The translations under genes and the position numbers were made by a program. 36,831 nt of DNA from Nitrospina sp. (GTDB lineage Bacteria > Nitrospinota > Nitrospinia > Nitrospinales > VA-1): contig JABIXH010000316.1 of the NCBI GenBank assembly GCA_018664975.1, forward strand, positions 1 through 36,831. The letters run 5' to 3'. This document shows, one piece after another, positions 3,429-25,595 of the stretch. How positions within the stretch are numbered: the first letter of the stretch is position 1; each line of letters starts with the position of its first letter. The notes beneath the pieces are model-generated. The model made no database searches. It was given only the letters and a program-made list of their open reading frames with translations, and was not told where the DNA came from.

Positions 3429-4160
3429 CTAAGAATGCTTAGGAGGAATCCCGTTAGCATAGATAGCTGGGAACTCACTCCGAGCAACCATCAGACTTTC
3501 AACGGTACCAATATCTCTATGGTAAACATTATTGTGAAATATGTTGATACGTCCCATATAATGAGGCAAGACTTCCGTACTAAAGTCTATCACTTCTTTT
3601 CCAAGGCTGACTAGAAAATCCAAAACCGATGGGGACAATATATATACCGCACCATTGGCTAAGTTTCCGGGGGGGTTTTCTAATTTTTCATGAAACGCTG
3701 TAACAATTCCCTGCCCGTCAAGCTCAACAATACCACATGCTTCCGGCTCCGAAGCATTAAAAGTCATCATCGATATTTCAACATTTTTTTCTCTATTTTC
3801 GTATTTATGCATAAATGCATTAACGCTGAACATAGATAAGTTATCTGCATGAATAAGCATTAAGGATTTACGCTGAAAAAACTCTCTATTCTTCAGCAAT
3901 GTTCCTCCCGTTCCCAACAATTTTTCCTCATAGGCTACAGTTATTTTCACAGGATAATTGCTTCTTTCTAAATAGTCTCTAACGATATCTGGAAAGCAAT
4001 GAAGATTAATCAGAATCTCGTTAATACCACCATTACAGAGCAACTCAATCCAATAGTCCAACAGTGGTCTACCATTTATTTCGACAAGGCACTTAGGAAT
4101 TGAATTTGTGATAGGACGCAAACGCGTACCCAAGCCTGCCGCCAGAAGGAGTGCTCGCAT
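3429..4160 (-). CDS. Sugar-1-phosphate nucleotidyltransferase
   Basis: This 243-residue NTP_transferase-family enzyme opens with MRALLLAAGLGTRLRPI, the nucleotide-binding signature with the catalytic Arg. It continues with IPKCLVEINGRPLLDYW (sugar-phosphate Lys) and IHADNL (metal-binding Asp). Length fits the short single-domain mannose- or heptose-1-phosphate guanylyltransferases (HddC-like) or uridylyltransferases; the nucleotide cannot be told from sequence alone. The ATG lies 3 bp after the stop of the HldE-like gene upstream, so the two are probably translationally coupled. The pairing with a heptose-kinase-type enzyme makes an aldose-1-phosphate of heptose type a reasonable guess. A cytoplasmic enzyme. 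Confidence 0.88.
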   Translation of the reverse strand: MRALLLAAGLGTRLRPITNSIPKCLVEINGRPLLDYWIELLCNGGINEILINLHCFPDIVRDYLERSNYPVKITVAYEEKLLGTGGTLLKNREFFQRKSLMLIHADNLSMFSVNAFMHKYENREKNVEISMMTFNASEPEACGIVELDGQGIVTAFHEKLENPPGNLANGAVYILSPSVLDFLVSLGKEVIDFSTEVLPHYMGRINIFHNNVYHRDIGTVESLMVARSEFPAIYANGIPPKHS

Positions 4161-4163
4161 AGT

Positions 4164-5639
4164 TTAGTCAGCCAGTTCCAATTTGACATCCTGAGGTGAT
4201 AAAGGAATGTTTCCGACTCGGCTCACCTGGCAAGCAGCGGCAATAGAACCTAGATACATGCTTTTCCATATATCTGTGCCCACTGCCATCGACATTGAGC
4301 AACAGGCCAGCAAGCTATCTCCTGCACCTGCAGAATCTTTCGGAGCAGTATTAAAGGCTGGCAAGCGGTCAGTAAGCCATGTTCCTGTATTTGCAGAAGT
4401 TGCATGAGCAATCACACCTTCAGATCCCAACGTCAGAATAATATTCTTGGCATTAGTTTTCTCACGAAGCTTTTCGGCAAGAACAACCAGTCCAGAATTA
4501 AAATCACGCACTGCGAGTCGTGCTTCGCGTTCAGTAGGCGTTAACAACAACGCATCTTTAAAACGTGAGACATCCCCCACCTGAGAAGAAGATTGGCTGT
4601 CGGCAACCATAAAAATATTATTTTTCCTGCAAACATCCGAAACTTCATTTACCAAAGGTTGCGGCAAACATCCATAATTAAAATCGGAAAAAATAACAAG
4701 ATCCGATTTCGACAAAGCAACTTTTACTGCGGCTACAAATTTACGCACGATTTGTTGGCTGATATCATGTTGTCGTAAGTGGCTAACACGAAGCAGAGTC
4801 TTGCCGTCTGCACGAAAACGTTGTTTAAGAGTGGTTGGTCGACTATCATCCTCAAACACCTCTGCCACCACCCCCCACTCATTCAATTTTTCCCTCGCAA
4901 ACTCAGCAGAAGAATCTTTGCCTGAAATGGAAAAATAGTTCACATCCGCTCCCAGACTATGGGCATGAGCCGCAACGATAGCAGCCCCACCTAAAAATTT
5001 TTCTTGCTGAATGGGAGTAACGACCAGCGTTGGGTCCTCCTGAGACATACCCAGAGCATCACAGGAAATATATTCATCCACGATTAAATCACCCAAAACG
5101 GTGACACGAAAGCCTTTGAATTTTTCCATTACCTCACGCAGATCGGCCATGGAAAATCCGTGTCGTTCGGTAAATTCTTTTGGCCGAACAATGGATGACA
5201 AATTCGCTTCTAGCATTTCCCGCCTGAGCAGATCAACACACGAAAATCGCATTTCTCCGGAACTGAATAATAATTTACCTCCGTAGCTATCAACCGCATC
5301 TTGCTCAGGGTTACTATGCACCTCATGTTCCTGCCCTTTAACCACGATAGATGGCTCCAACAATTTAATAAGCTGTTCTGGTGGTTCACTCATAGTGAAC
5401 GAGTAATCTACATAGCTGATAGACCTTACCGCTTCAAGTCTCAAGTCAGCGGGAACTAACACGCCAGCAGCATTGTCATCAGTGACACCAACAACAAGAA
5501 AATCACCACACTCATCTGCAAATCTCAGCAAACGAAAATGTCCAGGATGAATGGTATTAAAATTACCCGAAACGAAAACAATTCGCCTCCCTGGCCCCGC
5601 CTTCCTTTTTATCTCCGCAACAATTTCTGGATTCTGCAT
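4164..5639 (-). CDS. HldE-like bifunctional enzyme with reversed domains: cytidylyltransferase then PfkB kinase
   Basis: Residue numbers count from a TTG at 5651. Residues ~22-150 are a cytidylyltransferase domain (GNFNTIHPGHFRLL, HxGH at 35-38). Residues ~178-490 are a PfkB/ribokinase-type kinase (GDLIVDEY, GGAAIVAAHAHSLGAD, TPTEREAR, and the anion-hole/catalytic SAGAGDSLL with D445). Standard HldE/RfaE phosphorylates D-glycero-D-manno-heptose-7-phosphate and later adds AMP, GMP or CMP, with kinase first and nucleotidyltransferase second; here the order is inverted. The kinase segment resembles HldE domain I. I prefer the ATG at 5637-5639; the upstream TTG has no better ribosome site. Likely role: 1-phosphorylation and/or nucleotide activation of a heptose-like sugar. 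Exact substrate unknown. Confidence 0.87.
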   Translation of the reverse strand: MQNPEIVAEIKRKAGPGRRIVFVSGNFNTIHPGHFRLLRFADECGDFLVVGVTDDNAAGVLVPADLRLEAVRSISYVDYSFTMSEPPEQLIKLLEPSIVVKGQEHEVHSNPEQDAVDSYGGKLLFSSGEMRFSCVDLLRREMLEANLSSIVRPKEFTERHGFSMADLREVMEKFKGFRVTVLGDLIVDEYISCDALGMSQEDPTLVVTPIQQEKFLGGAAIVAAHAHSLGADVNYFSISGKDSSAEFAREKLNEWGVVAEVFEDDSRPTTLKQRFRADGKTLLRVSHLRQHDISQQIVRKFVAAVKVALSKSDLVIFSDFNYGCLPQPLVNEVSDVCRKNNIFMVADSQSSSQVGDVSRFKDALLLTPTEREARLAVRDFNSGLVVLAEKLREKTNAKNIILTLGSEGVIAHATSANTGTWLTDRLPAFNTAPKDSAGAGDSLLACCSMSMAVGTDIWKSMYLGSIAAACQVSRVGNIPLSPQDVKLELAD

Positions 5640-5821
5640 GAGGGAATTCAACTAAAAATATTCATGGTGGATTTACAGATTATGCTCAAGAGCTAACAAC
5701 GCAAAAGTTTTTCTAAAAAACTCCGCACCCACATTCTCATCAAGTTCAACGGGTTAGCAAAAGCTCAACATTTGTCCAAGGAGAAAAGAAATCACCATAT
5801 TTTCCTTTTCCAACAGACTTA

Positions 5822-13171: not shown

Positions 13172-13200
13172 AAAAAAAAATCGAGACTCGCTTAAGAGTC
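13172..13200 (-). terminator. Intrinsic terminator ending the sugar operon
   Basis: On the minus strand, GACTC-TTAAGC-GAGTC (13185-13200) forms a 5-bp stem whose loop contains the TAA stop of the copy-2 gene, followed by TCGA and nine Ts (13172-13180). Short stem but a strong T-run at the correct place. Confidence 0.6.
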
Positions 13201-14298
13201 GCTTACTCGCTTCTTGTTAAATCGAATACAAAATTCATCAAAGTGTTTCTTAATATTTTCGAAAGTGTCATCGTCACCATTCCAGCTCTGAAGGTCACTT
13301 CCCCAATACGGCCTTAACGCTACAGGATCTATCCAATAGTAACCATCCACAGTAGAAGGAGTTATGCATGCTCCCTCCAGCCAACCTTTCATATAAATAT
13401 AATTTATATTAGTTGAGTAAATAGCAAATATTCCCGGACCATTAGGAACATAACAATTAACAAAAGCTTTCTGATAAAGATGTAGCCTAATACCCATATT
13501 ATAGGTTGCGGCAAGTCCAATGTCAGTAAACCTTGGAGGTAGACCCTCCTCATCGAATGGCTGATCCGAATCTGGTATTATAATTGGTTTATAACCCAAG
13601 CTTTCCACATACTCAGCAAACCGCACCCACTCAGGAACTTTACTATTCCTGACCGGATCGAATTTCGAATTTCGTATAGTGATCGTAACGATTGGAGTAT
13701 CTTTAGAGTGGATTGAATGCCAATGATCCATCACTGCATTAATATGGTTTGGCACCTTAAATTCGCAGAAAATTCCTTCTTTAAATATAATCTCTGTCAG
13801 CGTATCGCCAAACTCTCCCAAAGTTGAAAAACCGTAGCCTTCAGGAAAAACATTTGCCTTAGAAGTAAATTTCCTCGCGGCTTTTCGAGTAGCAAAAGAG
13901 AGAACACCATTACATCTGGGGCTTAGCGACGCAAGGGAACTTAACAAATTAATGGTTCGATAATTTATTGCATCCTCACCATAGGACTCTGTCAACTCCT
14001 TCCACTCCAAAGCAGGATTTAACTCCTTGGGAACTATCACCACTGAATAATTCTGATACCCATTTTTTATACAATAATGCTCTACACATAATAAAAACTG
14101 TACTAGGTTAAATGAAGGAGACTGAACATTCAGGTCATATACTGCAAAAAGATCGTCAGTCTTCGATTTCATTCTCCCAATTACTGCGCACACAGATGCC
14201 GTTATCTTGGAAGCACGTATCCCACTCAAGATTCTCAAAAACAGCCAGACAATTCCCTCTTTTCTAACTTTCCTAAAAATATTTATTAATCGTTCCAC
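13192..14298 (-). CDS. Conserved protein of unknown function, copy 2 of a duplicated gene
   Basis: 368 residues, paralogue of 5822-6934. Long blocks are almost unchanged (for example FAVYDLNVQSPSFNLVQFL, ELNPALEWKELTESYGEDA, VNCYVPNGPGIFAIYSTN). The first ~50 residues, ~161-205 and the C-terminal tail differ. Nucleotide similarity is equally patchy, pointing to recent duplication plus local divergence or recombination. ATG at 14296-14298. It is the last gene of the operon, 60 bp after the GNAT gene and directly before the terminator. Alternating strands and a Pro/Gly turn hint at a nucleotide-binding fold; a glycosyltransferase role is only a guess. The differing segments could set acceptor or donor specificity. 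Confidence 0.8.
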   Translation of the reverse strand: MERLINIFRKVRKEGIVWLFLRILSGIRASKITASVCAVIGRMKSKTDDLFAVYDLNVQSPSFNLVQFLLCVEHYCIKNGYQNYSVVIVPKELNPALEWKELTESYGEDAINYRTINLLSSLASLSPRCNGVLSFATRKAARKFTSKANVFPEGYGFSTLGEFGDTLTEIIFKEGIFCEFKVPNHINAVMDHWHSIHSKDTPIVTITIRNSKFDPVRNSKVPEWVRFAEYVESLGYKPIIIPDSDQPFDEEGLPPRFTDIGLAATYNMGIRLHLYQKAFVNCYVPNGPGIFAIYSTNINYIYMKGWLEGACITPSTVDGYYWIDPVALRPYWGSDLQSWNGDDDTFENIKKHFDEFCIRFNKKRVSDS

Positions 14299-14358
14299 TA
14301 ATTACCTATCAAATAAATTTCTATACTTAAATATCCTATCCATTAATCACGTTTTTGA

Positions 14359-15594
14359 TCAATAGGCGTCCCCTTGAAATAAAAAGGGAAATCGCTGGGG
14401 GAAAATATTTTTCAACAAGGTTTTGCTCTCAAGATCAAGAGTGGCCTCACAAAAGGGAGCCAAATCTTCATACGCGAAATAACCAGTTAATAATGCTGGC
14501 AGAAATTTTTCAGGAATACTGATGCTGTTGGGCATCACATCATCCCCTAACTCAATCACTCCATCAACAACTTTAAAAGATATATTTTTTGACATTGTCT
14601 TTATACAAAATGAACCATCCCTTAAACCTAACCCTTCTAACCCAGTATTTAAATAGGGCACCAAGTCCTGGAACAATTCCAATGAATCAAAAATTTTAAA
14701 CAGCGATCCCCCGTCAGACTGGACAAATGCCAGGAATGTACCTCGCAAATGTTGCTTTAGATAGGTCATTAAAAACGAGCGATATGGAAGCTTAATTTCA
14801 AATTCAGATGCACCTAAATCCATGACATGTTTTTTCAATAAAGACATCGACAAGTTACAACTCTCTATTGAATTATCAACTATTACCTCCCTGAAGTTTA
14901 AAGGGTCCTCTGGGTCTCCTGAAAAATAACCGTGAACTTTACCATCATTCCCCTGAATAACTTTAGGTTGGTAAAAATAATACGATTTTTGGGCTGGGCC
15001 CACCAACCAACTCCAGATTTTATCGTCCCGGTTAGGAGAAAATATTACTTCGCCAGTGGCCCGCTTATATATTCGCTTCAATTCAGGAAGATGAGGCGAC
15101 TCAAAGTCAACTGCCTGACCCTTTTCGGTCAATGCCACATCATCTATATTAACTCTGATTTTTGACTTGGCTATATAAGGGAAAAAACCGTATTTAGAAT
15201 AAAAATTAGGTATCCCCTGCAAATACGCAATTTTCTTATTTGAATTTTTAACATAATTAAGGGCGTAATCCATTAGACCTGAGGATATCCCTCTTCTCTG
15301 ATAATCGGGATGGGTGGCAATGGGACCGATTGTTGCTGCAGAAATCTCCACCGGAGGAAAAGAAACCTTCCTTTCGCCAAGAACGATCACCCCTACAACT
15401 TTACCGTTTATTGTAGCTATTTTTGTGTGTTCACTTTTGAATATACTAGGATGCCAAACGGCCTCCTTCAAGTTCACTCCATGAATTTCTGTCTTAAAGG
15501 CAGAATCCAGAAGATTAACTATCTCGGTGCGCTCCTTTTCAAGGGTTAGATCCTTAAAAATAACACCTGACAGGTACTTGCCATTCTTGATCAT
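14359..15594 (-). CDS. GNAT-family N-acetyltransferase, Eis-like size
   Basis: 411 residues. Residues ~10-150 form a GNAT domain with the acetyl-CoA pyrophosphate loop in THPDYQRRGISSGLMDYAL (R-R-G-I-S/G pattern) and a following YLQGIPNFYSKYGFFPY, typical of the Tyr/Phe end of GNATs. The additional ~250 residues (a second GNAT-like half and a small C-terminal domain) match the size and layout of Eis/YhfB-type acetyltransferases. The ATG directly abuts the stop of the DegT aminotransferase gene (15595), so the pair probably works in sequence: the aminotransferase makes an amino sugar and this enzyme acetylates it. That functional link is inference from context. Confidence 0.82.
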   Translation of the reverse strand: MIKNGKYLSGVIFKDLTLEKERTEIVNLLDSAFKTEIHGVNLKEAVWHPSIFKSEHTKIATINGKVVGVIVLGERKVSFPPVEISAATIGPIATHPDYQRRGISSGLMDYALNYVKNSNKKIAYLQGIPNFYSKYGFFPYIAKSKIRVNIDDVALTEKGQAVDFESPHLPELKRIYKRATGEVIFSPNRDDKIWSWLVGPAQKSYYFYQPKVIQGNDGKVHGYFSGDPEDPLNFREVIVDNSIESCNLSMSLLKKHVMDLGASEFEIKLPYRSFLMTYLKQHLRGTFLAFVQSDGGSLFKIFDSLELFQDLVPYLNTGLEGLGLRDGSFCIKTMSKNISFKVVDGVIELGDDVMPNSISIPEKFLPALLTGYFAYEDLAPFCEATLDLESKTLLKNIFPQRFPFLFQGDAY

Positions 15595-16779
15595 TTATTC
15601 TCCCAAGATATCCAAAATAATTTTTCCGGCTTGATCAATTTCAATACTTCCTACGGGGGGGTTTACCAGTAGTTCAAGGAGTCGATGGTCACACATATTC
15701 TCAATGACAGGCAACTTGAGTGTTCGGTATCCAGATAAGTCCTTATAAAGCCCAGAGTAAAGGGGGTTGCACCAAGGCAAACCTCTAGCAGGAGCTTCTA
15801 TAGGATTAAAATGCGCATGGCGATGAAGAGGTGCCCATGTTCTCTTTAAAGGTAAGCCTCTAGCATTTGCTTTTTCGATTAACTCATCCAAGTTAATTTT
15901 GGCGCAATCTGTTAACTCCATAAGCACACTGTGATAAACCCCCTTTGAATTTTCAATTGGTTTTCTAACCAATATTTGACCTGAATTGCTCAAAATTGTA
16001 GCTAATTGTTCAGCATTGCTAATCCTGATATCATTCTGCGAATCTAACTTAGTTAAACCAACGCGGGCCAGAGCCGCTGAAAACTCTGTCATTCGATAGT
16101 TATAGCTCAACTCTGCATCTCCGAACGATCTCAAACGATATATCTTTGTTGCAAGTTCAGAATCGTTTGTCGAAATCACCCCGCCATCGCCTGAGCTGAT
16201 GGCTTTAGCTTGGTGCAAACTGAACACAGCTACTCTCCCAAAAGTTCCAATTCGCTTTCCTTCAAAAATCCCCCCATGCGCATGAGAGGCGTCTTCTATT
16301 AAATCAAGATCGTATTTTTCTGCAATTCGAACAATTTCATTCATGTTCGCTGGGTACCCAAAAACAGAAACCACGGAAATTGCGCGTGTGTGCTCTGTTA
16401 TATTTTTTTCAATTGATTTGGAACATAAAGCTAATGTTTCCCTTTCGCAATCGGCAAAAATGGGAACGGCATTTTGCATCAAAATAGAAGAAGCCGTTGA
16501 TATATGAGTATAGGGTGTCACGATTACCTCGTGACCAATACCAATTCCCAATGCCGCAAGCACAAGATGTAAACCTTCCGTGGCATTACCAACTCCTAGC
16601 GAATGCTTTACTCCAAGATACTCTGAGAATTCATTTTCAAACTGGCTTACTTCTCCTGCCGGAAAAAGCCCTGACTTATCTCCTGCCGCAAACAGTTGAC
16701 CAGACCTGATTACACGAAGGACGGCCTCCTCTTCTTCATCTCCATAGTTGGGCCATGAGGGCCACTTTAATAATGCCAT
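15595..16779 (-). CDS. DegT/DnrJ/EryC1-family PLP sugar aminotransferase
   Basis: 394 residues, the family length. Visible landmarks are GNATEGLHLVLAALGIG (PLP phosphate pocket), TPYTHISTASSIL, EDASHAHGG with the cofactor-contacting Asp at 163, and the Schiff-base lysine K192 in VFSLHQAKAISSGDGG. These enzymes transfer the glutamate amino group to a keto-sugar nucleotide at C3, C4 or C5. ATG at 16777-16779 preceded by GAGAGG. The keto substrate could come from the alcohol dehydrogenase gene upstream (162-bp gap containing nothing recognisable) or from the SDRs. An aldose/inositol aminotransferase role is the alternative. Confidence 0.9.
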   Translation of the reverse strand: MALLKWPSWPNYGDEEEEAVLRVIRSGQLFAAGDKSGLFPAGEVSQFENEFSEYLGVKHSLGVGNATEGLHLVLAALGIGIGHEVIVTPYTHISTASSILMQNAVPIFADCERETLALCSKSIEKNITEHTRAISVVSVFGYPANMNEIVRIAEKYDLDLIEDASHAHGGIFEGKRIGTFGRVAVFSLHQAKAISSGDGGVISTNDSELATKIYRLRSFGDAELSYNYRMTEFSAALARVGLTKLDSQNDIRISNAEQLATILSNSGQILVRKPIENSKGVYHSVLMELTDCAKINLDELIEKANARGLPLKRTWAPLHRHAHFNPIEAPARGLPWCNPLYSGLYKDLSGYRTLKLPVIENMCDHRLLELLVNPPVGSIEIDQAGKIILDILGE

Positions 16780-16941
16780 TTTTGCCTCTCTTCAGATCTA
16801 AACTAATTTAATTTTAAGATTTCGTCTTCCCATAGGGAAACAATTAAACCTGCATCATTTTTATTGTTTTTTGAATTATTTCTAATGGAAAGATTATAAG
16901 CACGGGATTCTGCAAATACTCGGCCTATCATAATCACAACC

Positions 16942-17997
16942 CTAACTATTCATTGTAATCAAACAACGACCTGAAATTTCACCAGAACGCATTTTTTGAA
17001 TTGCAGTATTAATTTCGTTGAGAAAAAAATGATCTGTGATGAGGGGCTTAAGTTGAATACGGCCCGCATCAAGCAATTTCTGATAACGCGGTATATCTTC
17101 GTGAGGAACGGTTTCACCGCCATGCGAACCACTTATTGTTTTTCCGAAATGGAGCGGTAAAGAATAAATATTTACATTATTTCCTTTCCTTGGAACCCCT
17201 ACCAGGACAACGCGCCCTTTGGGACTCGTCAAGTCATAGCCCATTTCGATAATAGCGGGTTGACCTGTATTATCAACAAAGGCATCGACTCCCTGATCCC
17301 CCAAAACTGTTTTAATCATTGCCTTTGCGTCAGCCTTATTGGAATTGATGGTATGGGTAGCACCTAATGTTTTAGCAAGCTCAAGTCGATCATCATGCAA
17401 ATCCACAGCAATTATAGGATAGGCTGAAAGCAAGTTAGCGGCCTGAACAATGTTAAGCCCTACTCCACCAGCACCAAATACCACAACCGATTCGCCAAGT
17501 TTTACTTTGGCATTGTTTTCAATCACCCCGAAACCCGTAGTCACCGCACAACCAAAGAGCGAGGCGATTTCCATGTCAGTAGTTGCATCAATCCGGGTCA
17601 CTCGATTTTCTGAGACAATTGCATAATCGTTGAACGTTGCAATTAAACCAGCATTCAATGGCTTTCCATTCCAAGTATAACGTGGAGGAAGAGATTCGAT
17701 TCCTTGACTTTTCCGCCAATGAAGAACCACGTGGTTTCCAGGCTCCACATACTTTACTCCTGCTCCCACAGACTGGACAATCCCCGATGCTTCATGACCC
17801 AACAGGTGCGGAAGATATTTATCCTCCCCTTTAGCTCCATCAATTTCTCCAAGCTGGGAGCCACAAATGCCACTACAATGAATTTTAACCAGAACTTGAC
17901 CTACTTCAAGTTTCTGGGGGAGCTCAATCCGATCGACAACCAAAGGCTTGTTCTGTTCGACAAGTATGGCCGCGTTCATGCTTTTAGGATAGCGCAT
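16942..17997 (-). CDS. Zinc-dependent medium-chain alcohol dehydrogenase without structural-zinc lobe
   Basis: Residue numbers count from a TTG at 18001-18003 that abuts the upstream stop; I prefer the ATG two codons on. Catalytic-zinc ligands are C47 (GICGSQ), H70-E71 (LLGHEASG) and C152 (LFGCAVTTGFG). The NAD(P) loop is VVFGAGGVGLN, followed by the acidic VDLHDDR, which suggests NAD. The four-cysteine structural-zinc lobe of classical ADHs is absent: the segment after HVVLHWRK has no cysteines. It is most like the ADH classes that keep the GCxxxTG catalytic loop. Likely oxidises a hydroxyl of the sugar to a ketone for the aminotransferase downstream, an inference from order. Confidence 0.88.
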   Translation of the reverse strand: MRYPKSMNAAILVEQNKPLVVDRIELPQKLEVGQVLVKIHCSGICGSQLGEIDGAKGEDKYLPHLLGHEASGIVQSVGAGVKYVEPGNHVVLHWRKSQGIESLPPRYTWNGKPLNAGLIATFNDYAIVSENRVTRIDATTDMEIASLFGCAVTTGFGVIENNAKVKLGESVVVFGAGGVGLNIVQAANLLSAYPIIAVDLHDDRLELAKTLGATHTINSNKADAKAMIKTVLGDQGVDAFVDNTGQPAIIEMGYDLTSPKGRVVLVGVPRKGNNVNIYSLPLHFGKTISGSHGGETVPHEDIPRYQKLLDAGRIQLKPLITDHFFLNEINTAIQKMRSGEISGRCLITMNS

Positions 17998-18003
17998 TTT
18001 CAA

Positions 18004-18675
18004 TCACTCAAAATAGATGAAAGAATGGTCCCCGGTATACCCCGCCTGCCTGAACCACCAGTCCCACTCTTCCGGGTTGCAAAAAGCTTCGCAGGTTACC
18101 TGCCAGTAAAGCAGGTTCGCCTTTTCGACTTCGTTGCGATATGACTCCACACATAAATATTTATTTTGCTTTCCTACACGTTCCATTTCCCGTAGTGCTT
18201 TATCCAAGTCATAGTTGTGCAGGTTGTGAAGGGTAGTGATCGAATAAACCAGGTCAAAGTGATTATCGGGGAATGGTAATTGATTTGCATTTCCAATCTG
18301 CAAACGATCCTTGATTTCTTCCTTGGAGTTGGCAATCGCGTAATCCGAAATATCTATTCCATAAATTTCGATTCCGGGAACCAGCAGAGATATTTCATAA
18401 AGCAAAAATCCTTTTCCACAACCTATATCAAGGACTTTGTCACCGGCCTTAAGACCGTAATGATCGGTCATGGCTTTTGCGACCGGCATCCAACGCCCCG
18501 CCATATAACGATAACCTCCATAACATATCCTGCGATCGCCATCCCAATAATCAAATCCCCACTTCTTAGCCAACTCAGCGGCTTTCTCTTTAGGGTATTC
18601 AGGGTCATTCACCCGCGCAAGGTAATCACGTACGGTGCTTTTATGTACTGAGGAAAGAAAGTCTAAGTATGCCAA
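18004..18675 (-). CDS. Class I SAM-dependent methyltransferase
   Basis: 223 residues with VLDIGCGKGFLLYEISLL (motif I), YGIDISDYAIANS (acidic end of strand 2) and LVYSITTLHNLHNYDLDKAL (motif IV). The conserved RRICYGGYRYMAGRW stretch before motif I is a feature of a sub-family found in polysaccharide clusters. The start appears to be TTG at 18673-18675: it has a good ribosome site (AAGAGG about 8 bp upstream) and lies just after the APH-kinase stop at 18678. Its stop abuts the next gene's start region, so the operon is tightly coupled. Target probably a sugar hydroxyl or amino group. Confidence 0.86.
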   Translation of the reverse strand: MAYLDFLSSVHKSTVRDYLARVNDPEYPKEKAAELAKKWGFDYWDGDRRICYGGYRYMAGRWMPVAKAMTDHYGLKAGDKVLDIGCGKGFLLYEISLLVPGIEIYGIDISDYAIANSKEEIKDRLQIGNANQLPFPDNHFDLVYSITTLHNLHNYDLDKALREMERVGKQNKYLCVESYRNEVEKANLLYWQVTCEAFCNPEEWDWWFRQAGYTGDHSFIYFE

Positions 18676-18677
18676 TG

Positions 18678-19679
18678 TCAGGCCTCTTTTGAAATGAAAA
18701 ATGTTTGTGCTTTATTTAACTGCAATAATTTACTTTGTTCAGGATCCAGTGTCGGGTTGGCAAAGCGGCGTCTTTTTGCCGCATCCGGCAAAAACTCGTT
18801 CAGCATAAGACAGCACCACTTTATCTTAAAAACAGGGAAAAGCAAGCGCGCCCGTTTGGCCAACTCAGCTTTATTTTTCGAATAGTCCAATGCCTCTGAA
18901 ATAAAAATATCTAAATATTTTAGCGAAACAGGAACTGCCGGTTGCAAAAAAAAATCTCCAACCATTTTTGCGGGATCATCCCAACCTGCATATTCAAAGT
19001 CAATAAAGCAAATATCTTCAGAGCCTTTTAGTAAAGCATTATGAAAACCAAAATCTGATGGAGAAATACACCGATCCTCGGCATCAAGTTCTCTGGAAAT
19101 CGATCCGTCACTGCTGGTAATTTTATTTTTTATTGACTTCCAGGCATTTTCAATTTCATCTACAAAAGAAATCACTTTACGGTCTAGCTCGGACACCACA
19201 GGTAGATTCCTCAAGCGATTTAGGCGTTCATTGATGATAAAAAAATGCCGCTCTATGCTAAAGCAACCTTCGGATGCAACTGGGAGAGTTTGATCTCGAT
19301 CCTGCCGGGCATTGAGTCCTTTAATGAAGCTGGCCGCCGCCATGATATGCTTTTGGGTCAATTCTAAACTTTCCAGCTTTCTCCCTTCGACAAACTCATA
19401 TAAACCTATATTATTTTTTTGATCGCAAAAAATCGGCTTCGGAACACATTCTAGTCTGATCTTACAGGCATACGAAAGAAAAGCATATTCAGCGGCAAGA
19501 CGATTGCGCGTATCAGAAGGATGACTGTAATAGGTTTTAGCAAGATATTTTCCAGCATTGGTTTGAACTGAGACTACTCTATTGTTGCCCCCTCCATATA
19601 TAGGGTTAATCTCTATTCCACCAGCATCGATACCGGCACCCACTAACATATCTGTGATGAATGAATTCAGGTTTTCCAT
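18678..19679 (-). CDS. APH/choline-kinase-family phosphotransferase (putative sugar kinase)
   Basis: 333 residues. The protein-kinase-like fold of aminoglycoside/choline kinases is indicated by the nucleotide Lys (K48 in GKYLAKTYY), helix-C Glu (~64), a Brenner-type loop in SPSDFGFHNALL with D209 and N214, and the metal Asp D227 in ICFIDFEYAGWDDPAK. The usual HxD is here SxSD, a variation seen in other sugar and choline kinases of the family. It overlaps the HAD gene's 3' end by 13 bp. In this context phosphorylation of a free sugar, perhaps at the anomeric carbon, is more likely than antibiotic resistance. Inference only. Confidence 0.82.
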   Translation of the reverse strand: MENLNSFITDMLVGAGIDAGGIEINPIYGGGNNRVVSVQTNAGKYLAKTYYSHPSDTRNRLAAEYAFLSYACKIRLECVPKPIFCDQKNNIGLYEFVEGRKLESLELTQKHIMAAASFIKGLNARQDRDQTLPVASEGCFSIERHFFIINERLNRLRNLPVVSELDRKVISFVDEIENAWKSIKNKITSSDGSISRELDAEDRCISPSDFGFHNALLKGSEDICFIDFEYAGWDDPAKMVGDFFLQPAVPVSLKYLDIFISEALDYSKNKAELAKRARLLFPVFKIKWCCLMLNEFLPDAAKRRRFANPTLDPEQSKLLQLNKAQTFFISKEA

Positions 19680-20281
19680 TTCATCTCAAAATAATTTCTG
19701 ATTTCCTTCCAGGATTCGAGTCTCGCCCCCATCCCCTCCACACCGTGGTTATTTTCCGGATCGAACAAGATGCGTTCTGTCTTTTGAGGGAACTCAGGCA
19801 TCAATAATATTTCAGGCAGGTCATCAATGAAAAAATCGCATTCGCACTGGGCAATACGTGCCAACTTATCCTTCTTCGTCACTTCAAAAAAAACCTGATC
19901 CGGCTCGATCAGGTTTTCAATACCATCCACTAAAAAACTTTCTACCCACCCTCTGGCGGCCTGGTGAAGGTCGTATTTCGGACCCCTAAAAGGATAGTTG
20001 GTCTTGTGGCTAACGATGACCATAGCAATCCCTCTATTACGGGCAAGCCGCATAAACTCAATTGCCCCAGGGTACGCTAGTGCATCACCCATCCTTGTTC
20101 CATAGACGTAACCCTGCATTTCCGTCCAGGTATCTTCATTATCGGCCTTTCTCAAAAAATCACGGACTGCCAGTTTAGACTTAGGCAGATCGGCTGGAAT
20201 CAGCTGTTTCTCAATGGCCACTCTGTAGAACAGTTCGTCATAGCTGACAATGGTATTGTCAAAATCAAATCCGATGCGCAT
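19667..20281 (-). CDS. HAD-superfamily phosphatase
   Basis: 204 residues. HAD motif I is DFDNT with nucleophile D6 and acid/base D8. Motif II is S91 in VIVSHKTNYP, motif III a Lys in the TKKDKL stretch, and motif IV the FFIDDLPEIL acidic pair D153/D154. The insert of ~65 residues after motif I suggests a small cap. Similar HAD proteins are found with kinases in sugar-activation pathways, where they remove the terminal phosphate in the manner of GmhB. The ATG lies next to the transketolase C-subunit stop (20283), and the gene overlaps the kinase gene, so the two probably act together: one removes, the other adds a phosphate. Confidence 0.86.
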   Translation of the reverse strand: MRIGFDFDNTIVSYDELFYRVAIEKQLIPADLPKSKLAVRDFLRKADNEDTWTEMQGYVYGTRMGDALAYPGAIEFMRLARNRGIAMVIVSHKTNYPFRGPKYDLHQAARGWVESFLVDGIENLIEPDQVFFEVTKKDKLARIAQCECDFFIDDLPEILLMPEFPQKTERILFDPENNHGVEGMGARLESWKEIRNYFEMKWKT

Positions 20282-20282
20282 T

Positions 20283-21215
20283 CTAAATTGATATGTGTTT
20301 GTATGCGTCTAACACCTGGCGGGAAATATTTTCTTCAGTTAAACCATATTTTTTTCTAGCATAACTCTGAGAGCCGACTTCGTGCATGAATTCGTCATCC
20401 GTGCCAAATGAGATCAGTCTACCTTTCATGGGAGGTTGTCTGGCCAGCCATTCTGCAATACTGCCCGCAAGCCCTCCAATTTTATTATGCTCTTCCACAA
20501 CAGCGACAACAGGGTAATCGGCAAACACATTCTTTATCGTCTCTTCATCCAACGGTTTAACCGTATGGAAACTTTCAACCCGGGCATTCACACCCTGCGA
20601 GGAAAGCATCTCAGCCGCCTTCACTACTATAGGCAATAAGATTCCGGTACTGATAAGACATACATCCGAGCCTTCCTGGACAGTAATAGACCGACCTATT
20701 TCAAAATGATCATCTTTTTTAGGAGTAACTGCCTCCCCCTTTTTACCAATACGAATATACACAGGTCCCTTCTGCTGGAGAGCGGCCCGAAGACACTGGC
20801 GAAGCTCCACTTCATCTGCTGGCGCAAGAACCGTCATGTTTGGCAACACTCTCATAATGGCCAGGTCTTCACAGGAGTGATGGGTCGGCCCAAGGTCGGC
20901 ATAGGACAACCCGGAACCGGTTCCAACAATGGTGACCGGAACATTTTGATAACATGCATCCACCCTTATTTGCTCATAGCATCGCGTGGTCGTGAAGGGG
21001 GTGATCGTGTAAATAATCGGCCGTAATCCAGAAAGAGCCATTCCAGCAGCTACCCCCATCATATTCGCTTCGGCCACACCGCAATTGAAGAATCGCCTTC
21101 CGTTTTGTCCTTTGAATTTATCAAATAACTTATTACCTATATCCCCCGACAAAAGTACTATGCGGGAATCTTCGGAACTCAGTTTTGTAGCTTCGTCAGC
21201 AAAAGCATTTCTCAT
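20283..21215 (-). CDS. Transketolase C-terminal subunit
   Basis: 310 residues covering the pyrimidine-binding and C-terminal domains of transketolase. The ThDP-activating Glu is E49 in FFNCGVAEANMMGVAAGMA. SGLSYADLGPTHHSCEDLAIMR matches the TK Pyr domain loop (shown here in part), and VVAVVEEHNKIGGL the C-terminal domain. The ATG overlaps the TGA of the N subunit (ATGA, 4 bp), a coupling typical of split transketolases. With its partner it should move a two-carbon ketol unit between a ketose and an aldose phosphate. As it is embedded in a sugar cluster, it is likely a specialised enzyme rather than the pentose-phosphate one. Confidence 0.92.
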   Translation of the reverse strand: MRNAFADEATKLSSEDSRIVLLSGDIGNKLFDKFKGQNGRRFFNCGVAEANMMGVAAGMALSGLRPIIYTITPFTTTRCYEQIRVDACYQNVPVTIVGTGSGLSYADLGPTHHSCEDLAIMRVLPNMTVLAPADEVELRQCLRAALQQKGPVYIRIGKKGEAVTPKKDDHFEIGRSITVQEGSDVCLISTGILLPIVVKAAEMLSSQGVNARVESFHTVKPLDEETIKNVFADYPVVAVVEEHNKIGGLAGSIAEWLARQPPMKGRLISFGTDDEFMHEVGSQSYARKKYGLTEENISRQVLDAYKHISI

Positions 21216-22033
21216 TTAACGAGTCCTAATTCTTTATGTGCAGAAACAAGTTCTTCTTCTGAGGGAATTCTGTAATGCCAGTTGTTGTCATCCTCCATAA
21301 AAGATACACCTTTACCTTTTACAGTATGCGCAATGACTGCAACTGGTTTTCCCTCGCTATTTTTTTCTTTGGTTAATACCTCTACAAGCTGGCCCATATC
21401 GTGGCCATTAATTTCGCAGGCATCCCAACCGAATGCACGCCATTTATCTACCAGCGGAGCCAACGCCAAAATTTCTTCACTTCGGCCTGTAGCCTGCCAT
21501 TTATTGAAGTCAACAACCACCATAAGATTATCAACCTTCTGAGCCGCCGCCATCATGGCCGCCTCCCACACCGACCCCTCATTGCACTCGCCGTCACTAA
21601 GAAGCGCAATCACCTTGTAACTTTGTTTCTGAATCCGAGCAGATAATGCCATGCCCAATCCAATCGGCAAACCATGCCCAAGGGAACCCGTAGCCGCCTC
21701 AATTCCAGCCAAGTGATCCGGGGTAGGAGGATGTTCTGCAAAAATTCCACCATCTTCTCCATAAGAATCCAGCATTGACTCAGGGTAGAAGCCTCTCATT
21801 GCCAGAACCTGAAATAAAGCCGCCGCACCATGTCCTTTGCTCAATATGAAACGGTCCCGGTCAGGATCTCGAGGTTTTTTCGGGTCGATCCGCAAACTGT
21901 GAAAATATACCGCCACCAGAATATCAACACAGGAAAGACAAGAACCCAGATGCGGAGTTTTTGTCTTGTGTGAAGTGGAGATGATTCGCCCACGAATCTC
22001 GCTGGCAATTTCCTGTAATTTTTCCAATTCCAT
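21212..22033 (-). CDS. Transketolase N-terminal (ThDP pyrophosphate-binding) subunit
   Basis: 273 residues. TPHLGSCLSCVDILVA, FILSKGHGAAAL and ATGSLGHGLPIGLGMAL are the conserved His-bearing loops of transketolase. The ThDP-metal motif is SDGECNEGS (D147-E149) to VDFN (N177). The PHLGSCLS loop varies the usual HLGGSLS, and substrate-loop residues may therefore differ from housekeeping transketolase. ATG at 22031-22033, 14 bp after the SDR stop; overlaps the C subunit by 4 bp. A split, two-gene transketolase is common in archaea and some bacteria, and inside glycan loci it implies a pathway that builds its own ketose. Confidence 0.92.
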   Translation of the reverse strand: MELEKLQEIASEIRGRIISTSHKTKTPHLGSCLSCVDILVAVYFHSLRIDPKKPRDPDRDRFILSKGHGAAALFQVLAMRGFYPESMLDSYGEDGGIFAEHPPTPDHLAGIEAATGSLGHGLPIGLGMALSARIQKQSYKVIALLSDGECNEGSVWEAAMMAAAQKVDNLMVVVDFNKWQATGRSEEILALAPLVDKWRAFGWDACEINGHDMGQLVEVLTKEKNSEGKPVAVIAHTVKGKGVSFMEDDNNWHYRIPSEEELVSAHKELGLVK

Positions 22034-22047
22034 TGCAGAATTTCTAT

Positions 22048-23040
22048 TTAAGGTTTATGAACATAATCCCAATGCATATCACGGAGATCGCCTAAATTGG
22101 ATTGCACCCATTCAATACAATCCTCCAATCCCTCATCCAAAGAAACCTCGTCCTTCCAGCCGAGACTTTGTCGAATCTTTGAGCTATCCAGCATGTATGC
22201 GGCATCCTTACCAAGACGCTCTCCAACAACTTCAACGCAATTATCAAAATCGGCATCCAGTTTAAGACAAATTTTTTCTACCAACTCACGCACCGTCACA
22301 ATCTCGTTGGTTGAGATGTGGTAGGTTTCACCCGGGGTTCCCTGTGTAGCTATTTTATGAGTCGCACTTGCAACATCGCGAAAATGAATGAAAGATCTTT
22401 TAGAGTGCCCGCCCCCATGAAGCTGAAGCTTTTTGCCAGTCAGTATCGATAGAATTGTCCTCGGAATGATCCGATAAAGTTGTTGCCCCGGACCATAGAC
22501 ATTGGCAGCACGCGTAAAAACCACAGGAAATTTATAGGCATCAAAAAAAGTTTTCAGGCTCATGTCTGCGGCGGCACGCGAAACCGCATAGGGAGTGCTT
22601 GGATTAAAGGGTATATCTTCCTTAATAAAGCCATCCGTGCTTCCATAAACCTCAGGGGTCGTCACATGAACATATTTATTTAAAAAATCAAAATGTCTCA
22701 AGCGGTCATGCAAACGAATGGTCGACACCACATTTGTCATGAACCAGTGGTCCGGGTATTCCCAACTTTGAGCAACCATACCCTGGGCGGCAAAATTGAC
22801 CACAAATGAAGGCTTTTCGTTTTTTACCAGAGATACGATTTCTTCAAGGTTCTTGTTAAGATCGTACTTATAAAATCTGAAACCCGTATCCTTCCCATTC
22901 CAGCGATAGGGCAAAAATGCTCTATGCAGTTCATCGGATCGGCTAGCGCCCATGACTGAATGCCCCTGTTTCAGCAAAAAATCTACGAAACTTGCTCCAG
23001 AAAACGAGTTACTCCCAATAATAAAATATTTTTCCGACAT
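22048..23040 (-). CDS. Extended SDR, NDP-sugar 4,6-dehydratase/epimerase-like, with YxxxR in place of YxxxK
   Basis: Residue numbers count from a GTG at 23044-23046; the ATG two codons later (23040) is the better start. The nucleotide loop is FIIGSNSFSGASF, a variant of GxxGxxG. HVTTPEVYGS holds the conserved Thr and Glu of RmlB-like dehydratases (TPEVYG). The active-site pair is Y153 and R157 (TPYAVSRAAADM), Arg replacing the normal Lys. TRAANVYGPGQQLYRIIPR and HGGGHSKRSFIHFRDV are the sugar-nucleotide binding loops. It overlaps the SIS stop. Probable role: dehydration or epimerisation of an NDP sugar. The Glu in TPEV argues for a dehydratase, the SDR family being otherwise ambiguous. Confidence 0.85.
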   Translation of the reverse strand: MSEKYFIIGSNSFSGASFVDFLLKQGHSVMGASRSDELHRAFLPYRWNGKDTGFRFYKYDLNKNLEEIVSLVKNEKPSFVVNFAAQGMVAQSWEYPDHWFMTNVVSTIRLHDRLRHFDFLNKYVHVTTPEVYGSTDGFIKEDIPFNPSTPYAVSRAAADMSLKTFFDAYKFPVVFTRAANVYGPGQQLYRIIPRTILSILTGKKLQLHGGGHSKRSFIHFRDVASATHKIATQGTPGETYHISTNEIVTVRELVEKICLKLDADFDNCVEVVGERLGKDAAYMLDSSKIRQSLGWKDEVSLDEGLEDCIEWVQSNLGDLRDMHWDYVHKP

Positions 23041-23042
23041 AA

Positions 23043-23630
23043 TCACTCGGCCAAAGGATTGTTATCATAAAGCCACTGCATGACCATGTGACCCACTACT
23101 AATTGCATATCCTCTGCAATCTGCATATCATCTATAGGGAAGTGAATCGCAACATCCGCCAGAGATTTACACTGCCCCCCTGAATAGCCCAAAATAGCAA
23201 AAGACTTTATATCCATAGTCTTGGAATGTTCGAGGACTTTGACTATATTGGGAGAGTTCCCACTACCAGAAAGAACAATGAGCAGATCTCCCGTCTCCCC
23301 CTGTACAGCAAGTTGTTCAGAAAAAATACTCTCATAACCCACATCGTTAGCAAGACAAGTTATCACTGCGGGGTTGGCAGAGAGAGCCAGAGCTTTTATG
23401 CCACCACCAGTACGCCGGGCAACTCCATACAAAAAGTCGTTGACCAGATGACTCGCATTGCCCGCACTGCCACCGTTCCCACAAAAAAACACCTGTCGTC
23501 CTGTTTCCCAGCAATTACGCATGTCTCGAGCTAATTCCGATACCCCAGACCATTCGGTTGACGCCAGAATAGATTGCAGACGCATCGCGTATCCCGCAAA
23601 AAACTCTTCCTGAGATTTATTTGAATCCAT
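23043..23630 (-). CDS. SIS-domain sugar-phosphate isomerase (GmhA-like)
   Basis: 195 residues, the size of GmhA (sedoheptulose-7-phosphate isomerase). FFCGNGGSAGNASHLVND is the phosphate-binding start of the SIS fold, and LLIVLSGSGNSPNIVKVLE the SGSGNS loop. By my recollection of E. coli GmhA, the catalytic base Glu65 corresponds to D65 here, while the acid His180 corresponds to the retained H181 (VVGHMVMQ). That is a conservative change, so it should be active but perhaps on a different ketose. It is flanked by two SDRs and lies in the transketolase operon, which could supply its ketose-phosphate substrate. The family also includes LmbN-type octulose isomerases. Confidence 0.86.
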   Translation of the reverse strand: MDSNKSQEEFFAGYAMRLQSILASTEWSGVSELARDMRNCWETGRQVFFCGNGGSAGNASHLVNDFLYGVARRTGGGIKALALSANPAVITCLANDVGYESIFSEQLAVQGETGDLLIVLSGSGNSPNIVKVLEHSKTMDIKSFAILGYSGGQCKSLADVAIHFPIDDMQIAEDMQLVVGHMVMQWLYDNNPLAE

Positions 23631-23632
23631 AA

Positions 23633-24577
23633 TTAACTATTAGCAAATAATGTTTTTTGCATCCATTTGAGGTTATAACAAAGTTCTTCGTCCTTAACCG
23701 CACCGTTACGGTATTTCTCAATGATTTCCACCACAGCATGTTCCACTGTTTTTTTCGGCTTGAATCCAGTTGCCAGGAGCTTATCAGAATTTACTCGATA
23801 CGAGCGTGGATCATTCGATTCGGTCACCTCAATTTCTACAGGAATGTGCTTAGCCGCCAGTTTAGCAATATCAAGAATCGAAATATTTTCAAAACCCGCA
23901 TTGTATATACCACAAACCTTCGGGTGATCAATCAAATGAAGATAAACATCGGTAATATCATCAATATGAATATTGGGCCGAATCTGTTTGCCACCGAACA
24001 CAGTAATTCTACCTTTTGAAAGTGCTTGCATGGTGAGCATATTCACTGACACATCTAAACGCATGCGAGGTGAATAGCCACAAACCGTTGCGGGACGAAT
24101 AATCTGGGCCCTCATTTTATCCTTGTAACTTAAGAGCACACGTTCAGAAACCATTTTAGTTTTGTTGTATTCAGAAATCGGCTTTAACTCAAGATCCTCG
24201 GTAACCTGCTCCTCCTCCTTAATGCCATAGACACTTCCAGATGAAGCAAAGATGAACTGCTTGACGCCGACCCGTGCCGCCTTATCAGCAAGTTGCATGG
24301 TGGCTAGCGCACTGATCTCCCAAGTCAACTTGGGGTCAAGGTCACTGCAAGGATCGTTAGCCACAGAAGATAAATGAATGATCACATCAATATCATCCAA
24401 AGAAATTTGATCGATATCACAGACATCTCCTTGAATTATTTCTAAGTTCGGGTGAGGTTCAAGAAAGTTACCAAACCACATGATGTCAAGCACTCGCACT
24501 TTATAATCTCGGGCAAGTAATTTTGGAACCAGCACACTCCCTTTATATCCGCATCCCCCAGTCACTAAAATATTCAT
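23633..24577 (-). CDS. Extended SDR, NAD-dependent epimerase/dehydratase
   Basis: 314 residues. MNILVTGGCGYKGSVLVPKL carries the GxxGxxG loop; IIHLSSVANDP, ASSGSVYGI (Ser) and Y137-x-x-x-K141 (EYNKTK) make an intact SDR active site. Later AQIIRPATVCGYSPRMRLDV and RPNIHIDDITDVY are the sugar-binding loops of GalE/4,6-dehydratase-like enzymes. ATG at 24575-24577 with GGGAAG upstream. Stop and SIS start are 2 bp apart. Probably an NDP-sugar epimerase or reductase in the same pathway; the precise reaction is not visible. Two SDRs in one operon suggest successive modification. Confidence 0.85.
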   Translation of the reverse strand: MNILVTGGCGYKGSVLVPKLLARDYKVRVLDIMWFGNFLEPHPNLEIIQGDVCDIDQISLDDIDVIIHLSSVANDPCSDLDPKLTWEISALATMQLADKAARVGVKQFIFASSGSVYGIKEEEQVTEDLELKPISEYNKTKMVSERVLLSYKDKMRAQIIRPATVCGYSPRMRLDVSVNMLTMQALSKGRITVFGGKQIRPNIHIDDITDVYLHLIDHPKVCGIYNAGFENISILDIAKLAAKHIPVEIEVTESNDPRSYRVNSDKLLATGFKPKKTVEHAVVEIIEKYRNGAVKDEELCYNLKWMQKTLFANS

Positions 24578-24594
24578 TCAGACTTCCCTTTTTA

Positions 24595-24825
24595 TCAAAA
24601 ACAGATGTTTAAATATGAATTAGCATGAAATCCAGAACCGTAAAGTTGATCTGCTTCAAGCAGACCACAAAATTTCAACAGATAAAATGGACTAATTGGA
24701 TGCAATAATTTTCTTTGCAAAAACAGGGCGGGCAAGGACCATATAGATTTAGCAAGTTTGCGGAGGAAGGGGTTACACATAACAAAAAAAATGATGCGCA
24801 CAACGAGGCGTAAGAACCAGCTCAA
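24595..24825 (-). CDS. Small hypothetical ORF or truncated fragment
   Basis: A 76-codon frame with TTG start and an in-frame stop just upstream. It fills the gap between the TylF-type methyltransferase and the SDR, where the operon is otherwise tight. It begins with a hydrophobic run (LRLVVRIIFFVMCNPFL) and ends LYGSGFHANSYLNICF. I recognise no domain. It may be the tail of a broken gene or a real small membrane-associated protein. AGG about 10 bp upstream is a weak ribosome site. Confidence 0.35.
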   Translation of the reverse strand: MSWFLRLVVRIIFFVMCNPFLRKLAKSIWSLPALFLQRKLLHPISPFYLLKFCGLLEADQLYGSGFHANSYLNICF

Positions 24826-24872
24826 CTTTACCTAAGAATGGGATTAACCCCGAACTTGATCTACATTGCAAA

Positions 24873-25595
24873 CTAGCTCTTCAGCCCTGCAATACAAGAA
24901 TAGTTAATATGATGCATCAATGGGTTTATATTGTTGCTTGCAATAAACTCATCAAAAGCATCTCTCGCCCCGGAATGATGCCCATAATCATCAATAATAA
25001 TAACTCCATTTTTCGAAAGCCTGTCATAAAACTCATTTAAAGCTAACAGCGTTGGTTCGTACCAATCCATATCTAAGCGGAGAATGGATATCTTATCTAT
25101 TTGCCTCAACTCTTTAACTTTATCCTGAATTTTTCCCTTAATTAAGGTAAACCTACCCCATTCTCCGTAAATTTCTTGTAAAAAATCAGTTGTCTCATGG
25201 TGACATGCTTTAGCCCAACTGCCATTTTTACTGACTTCAATTTCATATCTTTCTTTCATATTATTACCCCACACATCAACCTCATTTTGTGCGGGGGCAG
25301 GATGTCCCTCAAACGTATCAACACCTATCACATTTCTTTGGGATTGACTTTTCTCTAGACATAAACCAACCAGGCCCAGACTTCCGCCTTTCCAAACTCC
25401 CAATTCTAAAATGGATCCTTCTATATTGTTTTTTTCTACATACTCAACCGAGCGCCAAAAATCATAAAGCACCTCAACTGACAACATCGTTCTATGACGA
25501 ATCTTTTCATAAGATGCCAAAAATTCCACATCCACAATACTGTTAAACGCATTGGTGTGGTTTAGTGCTTGTTTTTTTTGAAAATTAATTTCCAC
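24873..25595 (-). CDS. TylF/MycF-family O-methyltransferase
   Basis: 240 residues. SILELGVWKGGSLGLVG is motif I as in TylF-type macrocin O-methyltransferases; GVDTFEGHPAP follows. The magnesium-binding acidic residues appear in SILRLDMDWYEPT and VIIIDDYGHHSGARDAF. These enzymes methylate sugar hydroxyls. The start is GTG at 25593-25595 with a good AAGGA about 9 bp upstream. It is the first gene of the operon on this strand, so its upstream region (to 25.7 kb) should hold the operon promoter. Methylation of the product sugar, or of a linked residue, is the likely role. Confidence 0.87.
   Translation of the reverse strand: MEINFQKKQALNHTNAFNSIVDVEFLASYEKIRHRTMLSVEVLYDFWRSVEYVEKNNIEGSILELGVWKGGSLGLVGLCLEKSQSQRNVIGVDTFEGHPAPAQNEVDVWGNNMKERYEIEVSKNGSWAKACHHETTDFLQEIYGEWGRFTLIKGKIQDKVKELRQIDKISILRLDMDWYEPTLLALNEFYDRLSKNGVIIIDDYGHHSGARDAFDEFIASNNINPLMHHINYSCIAGLKS

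Follow-up and report, generated by a model that had tools for sequence, protein, structure and literature searches.

The 36,831-nucleotide stretch of Nitrospina sp. DNA analysed here (the window; GenBank assembly GCA_018664975.1, contig JABIXH010000316.1), which belongs to a 2.9-Mb metagenome-assembled genome (MAG) with 78% completeness, carries eleven core genes that can be read as orthologues of the complete bradyrhizose cluster of Bradyrhizobium, accompanied by local decorations; judged from the sequences, this orthology is strong. Nine of the core genes form a run (24577–16942) in the order SDR1-SIS-SDR2-TkN-TkC-HAD-APH-MT-ADH, which encodes two short-chain dehydrogenases/reductases (SDRs), a SIS isomerase, the two subunits of a split transketolase (TK), a HAD-type phosphatase, an APH-fold kinase, a methyltransferase (MT) and a zinc alcohol dehydrogenase (ADH). 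The other two, an HldE-like fusion and a sugar-1-phosphate nucleotidyltransferase (NTP-transferase), lie at 5651–3429 (Table 1).

Table 1. Features of the window relevant to the cassette (NDP, nucleoside diphosphate; ThDP, thiamine diphosphate)
Feature	Position	Strand	Remarks
SDR1	23633..24577	-	Pfam Epimerase; sugar-nucleotide dehydrogenase, proposed NDP-heptose C4 oxidation
SIS, divergent GmhA relative, sugar-phosphate isomerase	23043..23630	-	SIS_2; TIGR00441 gmhA 115 bits (cut-off 209)
SDR2, RmlB-like, ORS285 "gdh" orthologue, TPE/YxxxR subfamily	22048..23046	-	TIGR01181 206 bits (cut-off 365)
TkN, split-transketolase subunit binding ThDP	21212..22033	-	Transketolase_N; ThDP and metal residues kept
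TkC, split-transketolase pyrimidine and C-terminal subunit	20283..21215	-	Transket_pyr, Transketolase_C; catalytic Glu411 kept
HAD-type phosphatase	19667..20281	-	PF12710 E 4e-4; TK module only
APH-fold kinase	18678..19679	-	PF01636; TK module only
MT, S-adenosylmethionine (SAM)-dependent methyltransferase	18004..18675	-	Methyltransf_31
ADH, zinc alcohol dehydrogenase	16942..18003	-	ADH_zinc_N, ADH_N; in most TK and E1 cassettes
HldE-like fusion, reversed (nucleotidyltransferase, then PfkB kinase)	4164..5651	-	TIGR02198 192 bits, TIGR02199 66 bits
NTP-transferase	3429..4160	-	PF00483; HddC model match below cut-off (89 bits)
DegT aminotransferase and GNAT, local additions	14359..16779	-	Pfam; no close homologue at conserved place elsewhere
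Last gene, probable GT-B glycosyltransferase	13192..14298	-	81% identical to 5822-6934
TylF-type methyltransferase, non-core	24873..25595	-	PF05711; not conserved with cassette

A first-pass annotation had placed a dedicated operon at 13192–25595, a range that misses the two unit genes at 3429–5651, and had counted 12 genes in its title and 14 open reading frames (ORFs) in its list. All fourteen are present on the minus strand, in the order given and with the junctions given (ATGA at 21212–21215, a 13-bp overlap at 19667–19679, and abutments at 15594/15595 and 18003/18004), and its TylF, SDR, SIS, SDR, TkN, TkC, APH, MT, zinc ADH, DegT and GNAT domain calls were borne out by Pfam and NCBIfam. 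For the HAD call, the Pfam match is weak and below the curated cut-off, but the DxD and DD motifs are conserved in 56 homologues. The 76-amino-acid small ORF, which has no Pfam or NCBIfam match and no tblastn match across the other approximately 100 loci, is probably not a gene. The hairpin pattern called as a terminator exists at 13200–13185, but such patterns are not enriched in the window (9 against 11.8 ± 3.3 in shuffled sequence).

The extent of the unit was revealed by a sibling Nitrospina genome (G038), which retains the nine-gene run from SDR1 to ADH with 87–98% identity; beyond it, a block of other content precedes HldE-like and NTP-transferase genes 76–82% identical to those of the window. 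As this genome keeps only the core, the genes at 3429–5651 belong to the unit, and the TylF, DegT, GNAT and last genes, initially regarded as pathway members, are additions; they also lie outside the conserved unit in the other cassettes compared. DegT and GNAT were rejected as core components, since no close homologue occurs at a conserved place in other cassettes, and the core does not imply the N-acetylated amino product that had been suggested. The interval between ADH and the HldE-like gene is a variable slot: it is contiguous in a Nitrosomonadaceae MAG (L041), filled differently in G038, and occupied in the window by a block of ~11 kb, with a gap of 162 bp between ADH and DegT. The HldE-like gene is directly followed by the NTP-transferase gene in the window, G038, L041 and Bradyrhizobium. 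The GC content of the core is 42–47% over most of its length, versus 36–40% in most flanks. A phage or plasmid origin was rejected; no close SDR2 was found on plasmids, and phage matches to TkN show less than 50% identity. The block that splits the cassette is bordered by the 81% identical pair at 5822–6934 and 13192–14298, which looks like the outcome of insertion or recombination. An AlphaFold model of the 13192–14298 product (pLDDT 70.6) is weakly GT-B/GT9-like, retrieving GT9/heptosyltransferases in Foldseek (best E 1.2e-4).

Regarding the relationship to bradyrhizose, gdh of photosynthetic Bradyrhizobium belongs to a cluster of 11 genes that is located some 44 kb from rfaL and shows synteny across six photosynthetic strains, and gdh insertion mutants lack both the O-antigen and bradyrhizose (PMC4743980). 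In the 2016 bradyrhizose paper, the biosynthesis genes were unknown and the cluster was a candidate only. This gdh is taken to be SDR2. In strain ORS285 (G333), SDR2 is located 44.0 kb from the Wzy_C ligase gene (rfaL), itself beside HldE and GmhA, and simple ORF calling showed the eleven-gene run to be isolated by upstream and downstream gaps of more than 500 bp and several hundred bp, respectively. SDR2 occurs in 16 of 272 Bradyrhizobium genomes, namely in 10 of 27 with a photosynthetic reaction centre versus 6 of 245 without (Fisher p 9e-8, uncorrected for phylogeny), and all ten of the former contain one run of eleven genes in the order HldE-like, NTP-transferase, SDR1, SIS, SDR2, TkN, TkC, ADH, HAD, APH and MT. 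All eleven are present in the window, with 40–75% identity to the Bradyrhizobium orthologues. The clusters of ORS285, ORS278 and BTAi1 share with the window the same protein families and the order of SDR1-SIS-SDR2 and tkN-tkC, the synteny of SDR1-SIS-SDR2-TkN-TkC being kept, whereas in the window ADH has moved behind MT and the ~11-kb block cuts off the HldE-like and NTP-transferase genes. The complete set, which the first-pass annotation did not recognize, matches a cluster already known genetically; for this cluster, the searchable literature yielded neither a pathway nor a distribution nor a module swap.

A contig scan with an SDR2 alignment yielded 350 relatives, the best 80 of which were read with 10-kb flanks; about 100 cassettes were compared overall, and the counts of TK and E1 types given below refer to 80 further cassettes. 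A search for the cassette order in other genomes, as the first-pass annotation had proposed, found it in dozens of genomes from several phyla, among them Beta-, Alpha- and Gammaproteobacteria, Verrucomicrobiota and Chlorobiota and including the cultured Herbaspirillum huttiense (L044), and the gene order is therefore conserved far beyond chance. The TkN/TkC pair is present in 45 of 80 loci, and at least one TK subunit in 48. In 25 loci, a pyruvate-dehydrogenase-E1-like pair is found (E1-alpha and E1-beta, defined by Pfam E1_dh and by Transket_pyr plus Transketolase_C). The two pairs never occur together (0/80), and the 7 loci with neither are mostly truncated. Among loci of at least 12 kb, HAD accompanies the TK type in 37 of 38 cases and APH in 36 of 38, and both are absent from all 22 loci of the E1 type. 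SDR1, SIS, SDR2, HldE-like, NTP-transferase, MT and ADH are found with both types, the MT orthologues being 57–95% identical in TK cassettes and about 40% in E1 cassettes. On a tree of SDR1 plus SDR2, built by a quick method with SH-aLRT support only, the type changes 13–15 times, at least 9–10 of them on well supported branches, and among independent pairs HAD and APH go with TK in roughly nine out of nine (p 0.004), which SIS does not. The exchange is illustrated by L041, the sister of the window cassette (SDR1 90%, SIS 87%, SDR2 85% and ADH 85–86% identical), which carries MT-E1a-E1b in place of the TK pair. The E1 form also occurs in 10 of 16 Rhodopseudomonas genomes, strain CGA009 not being among them.

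Several variants were observed among these loci. The E1-type cassette of Rhodopseudomonas loci L174–L181 comprises nine genes, and its SIS is more divergent (about 30% identical); two E1-type loci (L064 and L078) have an extra distant split transketolase, 33–38% identical and also without phosphate-binding residues. Another Nitrospina (L032/L082) carries SDR1, SDR2, the HldE-like fusion and the zinc ADH, and the ThDP pair was not found nearby. Two C-methyltransferases, a cupin protein and a FabG-like SDR are encoded in a block adjoining the cassette in G038 (L030, 7861–12830) and in a Bradyrhizobium (L135, 14818–18675), the proteins being 30–51% identical between the two; the cupin and second methyltransferase of this block were detected in TK-type loci only (9/9).

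The active sites of the cassette enzymes were compared with those of characterized relatives in 55 transketolases, 63 SIS proteins, 94 SDR2 proteins and 56 HAD homologues. In the transketolases (E. coli TktA numbering), the ThDP, metal and catalytic residues H26, H66, G114, D155, N185 and E411 are kept in 55/55, R358 is kept and H100 is replaced by Q in 6/55. Three residues that bind the sugar phosphate and substrate hydroxyls are replaced in all 55 (H461 to G, D469 to L and R520 to K), and the housekeeping transketolase of the same genome retains H, D and R. The nearest solved structure to TkN is the split transketolase 6yak. In SIS, metal ligands H61 and H180 are kept (the latter in 62/63), and E65D and Q172E are found in 63/63; in SDR2, D134 is replaced by P in 94/94 (TPE for TDE) and K171 by R in 93/94 (YxxxR for YxxxK). 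With these changes and with scores under the model cut-offs, SIS falls outside GmhA and SDR2 outside the RmlB dTDP-glucose 4,6-dehydratases, and each forms a separate subfamily. The best solved relative of SDR1 is 6vo6 (E 8.7e-38, residues 2–290), which we take to be the Campylobacter jejuni enzyme Cj1427, a C4-dehydrogenase acting on GDP-heptose. The kinase domain of the HldE-like fusion is nearest to the HldA kinase 4e84. D6, D8, D153 and D154 of HAD are invariant, as are D209, N214 and D227 of APH.

Separate genes for the corresponding primary functions are present elsewhere in the genome: a second split transketolase on contig C203, a GmhA beside HldE on contig C2, and a GmhB-like gene, below its cut-off, on contig C169. 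The cassette copies are therefore additional, the cassette SIS being 28% identical to the GmhA of the same genome. The C203 copy rules out the cassette pair as the sole pentose-phosphate transketolase, an outcome that would have undone the first-pass reading. The part of that reading in which a dedicated pathway leads to an unusual activated sugar, bigger than a hexose, is supported.

As orthologues of the bradyrhizose cluster, the eleven core genes probably direct the formation of a higher sugar that is branched at C4, activated as a sugar nucleotide and destined for a surface polysaccharide. Judging from the families, the GmhA-like SIS, the HldE-like kinase/nucleotidyltransferase and the NTP-transferase would supply an NDP-heptose, and SDR1, which resembles heptose C4-dehydrogenase, probably with SDR2, would oxidize and remodel this heptose, giving an NDP-4-keto sugar. 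Both the active site and the module swap suggest that the split transketolase would then transfer a two-carbon hydroxyacetyl unit onto the C4 ketone, creating a tertiary alcohol; it thus probably adds a branch to an NDP-4-keto-heptose rather than building the heptose. The E1-like enzyme donates an acetyl group from pyruvate and, acting before the isomerase, would give a 1-deoxy-ketose, which is not convertible to an aldose. As SIS cannot use such a ketose, the role that TK and E1 have in common would most plausibly come later than the shared steps and consist in carboligation to a ketone. The extra branch hydroxyl that is unique to the transketolase product would be a possible target of the APH kinase and HAD phosphatase, which strictly co-occur with TK, and the zinc ADH and MT would complete the sugar.

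Bradyrhizose has ten carbons, and its ring closes from C1 to O4, O5 or O9 (PMC9912281). C4 is therefore the branch point with a tertiary hydroxyl and, given the inositol ring, C4–C9 is the carbocycle. The proposed pathway would give the same carbon count (7 + 2 + 1 = 10): heptose C1–C7 and the two-carbon branch at C4, joined at C7, would form a nine-carbon frame with a six-membered ring C4–C9, and the SAM methyl group would be the tenth carbon, although MT may supply either this carbon or an O-methyl group. Closure of the branch onto C7, which would generate a cyclitol ring on a sugar nucleotide and thereby account for the biosynthetic logic of bradyrhizose, with the TK/E1 exchange switching one base pathway between hydroxyacetyl and acetyl branches and so diversifying O-antigens across phyla, is a tentative extension to which we give somewhat less than even chances; a bicyclic product in Nitrospina is possible.

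Two-subunit ThDP enzymes encoded near keto-sugar-nucleotide genes are also a feature of known or proposed branching systems, namely YerE, alpha-keto-acid dehydrogenase 2 (alpha-KADH2; aldgamycin and kibdelomycin) and the split transketolases of miharamycin and amipurimycin, in which the C2 donor likewise fits the type. E1-like (alpha-KADH2) pairs are known sugar-branching enzymes, and the split transketolases of miharamycin and amipurimycin biosynthesis have been proposed as such (PMC12247030). The cassette transketolase shares two hallmarks of ThDP branching enzymes, having putative keto-sugar-nucleotide enzymes as neighbours and being exchanged with a known branching type. Unlike those systems, the cassette has a surface-polysaccharide context, heptose-type activation genes and a distribution over many phyla, the split transketolases of the branching kind listed in PMC12247030 being from Streptomyces only. 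As for O-antigens, Rhodopseudomonas CGA009 has a C4-branched sugar, and for a different sugar of R. palustris a YerE-type enzyme has been assumed in a ChemBioChem review; a literature search for split transketolases with O-antigen or branched sugars yielded nothing direct. The isomerase, PfkB kinase and nucleotidyltransferase recall the ADP-heptose (GmhA/HldE/GmhB) and GDP-heptose (GmhA/HddA/HddC) pathways, but the GmhA metal ligands are altered, the HldE-like domains are reversed, and housekeeping copies exist separately. SDR1 is a relative of the C4-dehydrogenase of GDP-heptose modification in Campylobacter, in which epimerization and reduction come next, whereas in the cassette a ThDP enzyme follows.

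The first-pass annotation had instead cast the transketolase as the carbon builder, and on that model the split transketolase would make sedoheptulose-7- or octulose-8-phosphate for SIS to isomerize and the rest to activate. The model has in its favour the presence of a transketolase and a GmhA relative in one operon, the known use of sedoheptulose-7-phosphate by GmhA and the retention of R358. It is very improbable and was dropped as the main model, because SIS, the HldE-like protein, the NTP-transferase and the SDRs are equally common with the E1-like pair, where transketolase is absent, and because H461, D469 and R520, including the phosphate binders H461 and R520, are lost throughout; moreover, the housekeeping transketolase already makes sedoheptulose-7-phosphate. 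The parallel drawn with the lincosamide octose (LmbR/LmbN) also failed, as no transaldolase domain was detected among the window proteins scanned. An improbable alternative is that the locus makes two products, SIS, HldE-like, NTP-transferase and SDRs yielding an NDP-heptose and TK-HAD-APH a small hydroxyacyl or sugar-alcohol substituent attached later. The joint movement of TK, HAD and APH would accord with it, as would the presence of a kinase and a phosphatase if the building block were small and phosphorylated; yet TK and E1 substitute for each other exactly, no dedicated transferase accompanies the module, and the ten bradyrhizose-clade genomes have just these eleven genes, the O-antigen of photosynthetic Bradyrhizobium having been described as a single-sugar homopolymer (PMC4743980).

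Several points weigh against the C4-branched, bradyrhizose-type sugar itself. MT may act as an O-methyltransferase, and some loci encode further C-methyltransferases close by; a cyclase for the carbocycle is not evident; the altered active sites of SIS and SDR2 make "heptose" and "4-keto-6-deoxy" guesses; and polarity of the gdh mutation was not excluded by its authors (PMC4743980). On a further alternative, the gdh effect is polar, and Nitrospina makes another branched or unbranched higher sugar and shares only early steps with Bradyrhizobium. This is rather unlikely: the modest identity to Bradyrhizobium orthologues (only 40–75%), the added DegT, GNAT and TylF genes and the possible polarity speak for it, but none of the 11 genes has been lost, not even HAD and APH, which are specific to the TK type.

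The comparison names eleven enzymes of the bradyrhizose cluster, each with a testable role, and reveals that the cluster is not confined to plant symbionts but extends over Proteobacteria, Nitrospinota, Verrucomicrobia, Chlorobi and others. The repeated exchange of two types of ThDP enzyme on one base pathway constitutes a natural experiment, and whether a bacterium makes hydroxyacetyl- or acetyl-derived branched sugars would be predictable from its TK or E1 type. Split transketolases that accept ketones are sought for the biocatalytic production of tertiary alcohols; none has so far been demonstrated in vitro (PMC12247030).

Other genes of the window also relate to sugar metabolism or adjoin the cassette. 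The same polysaccharide locus contains a second pathway to a deoxysugar, represented by a CDP-glucose 4,6-dehydratase (35562–36677; 472 bits versus a curated cut-off of 278) and a C-methyltransferase (32052–33284). A B12-binding radical SAM protein is encoded at 1433–2965, adjoining the NTP-transferase gene, and the E1-type cassette L034 contains (15247–17088) a radical SAM protein 23% identical to it.

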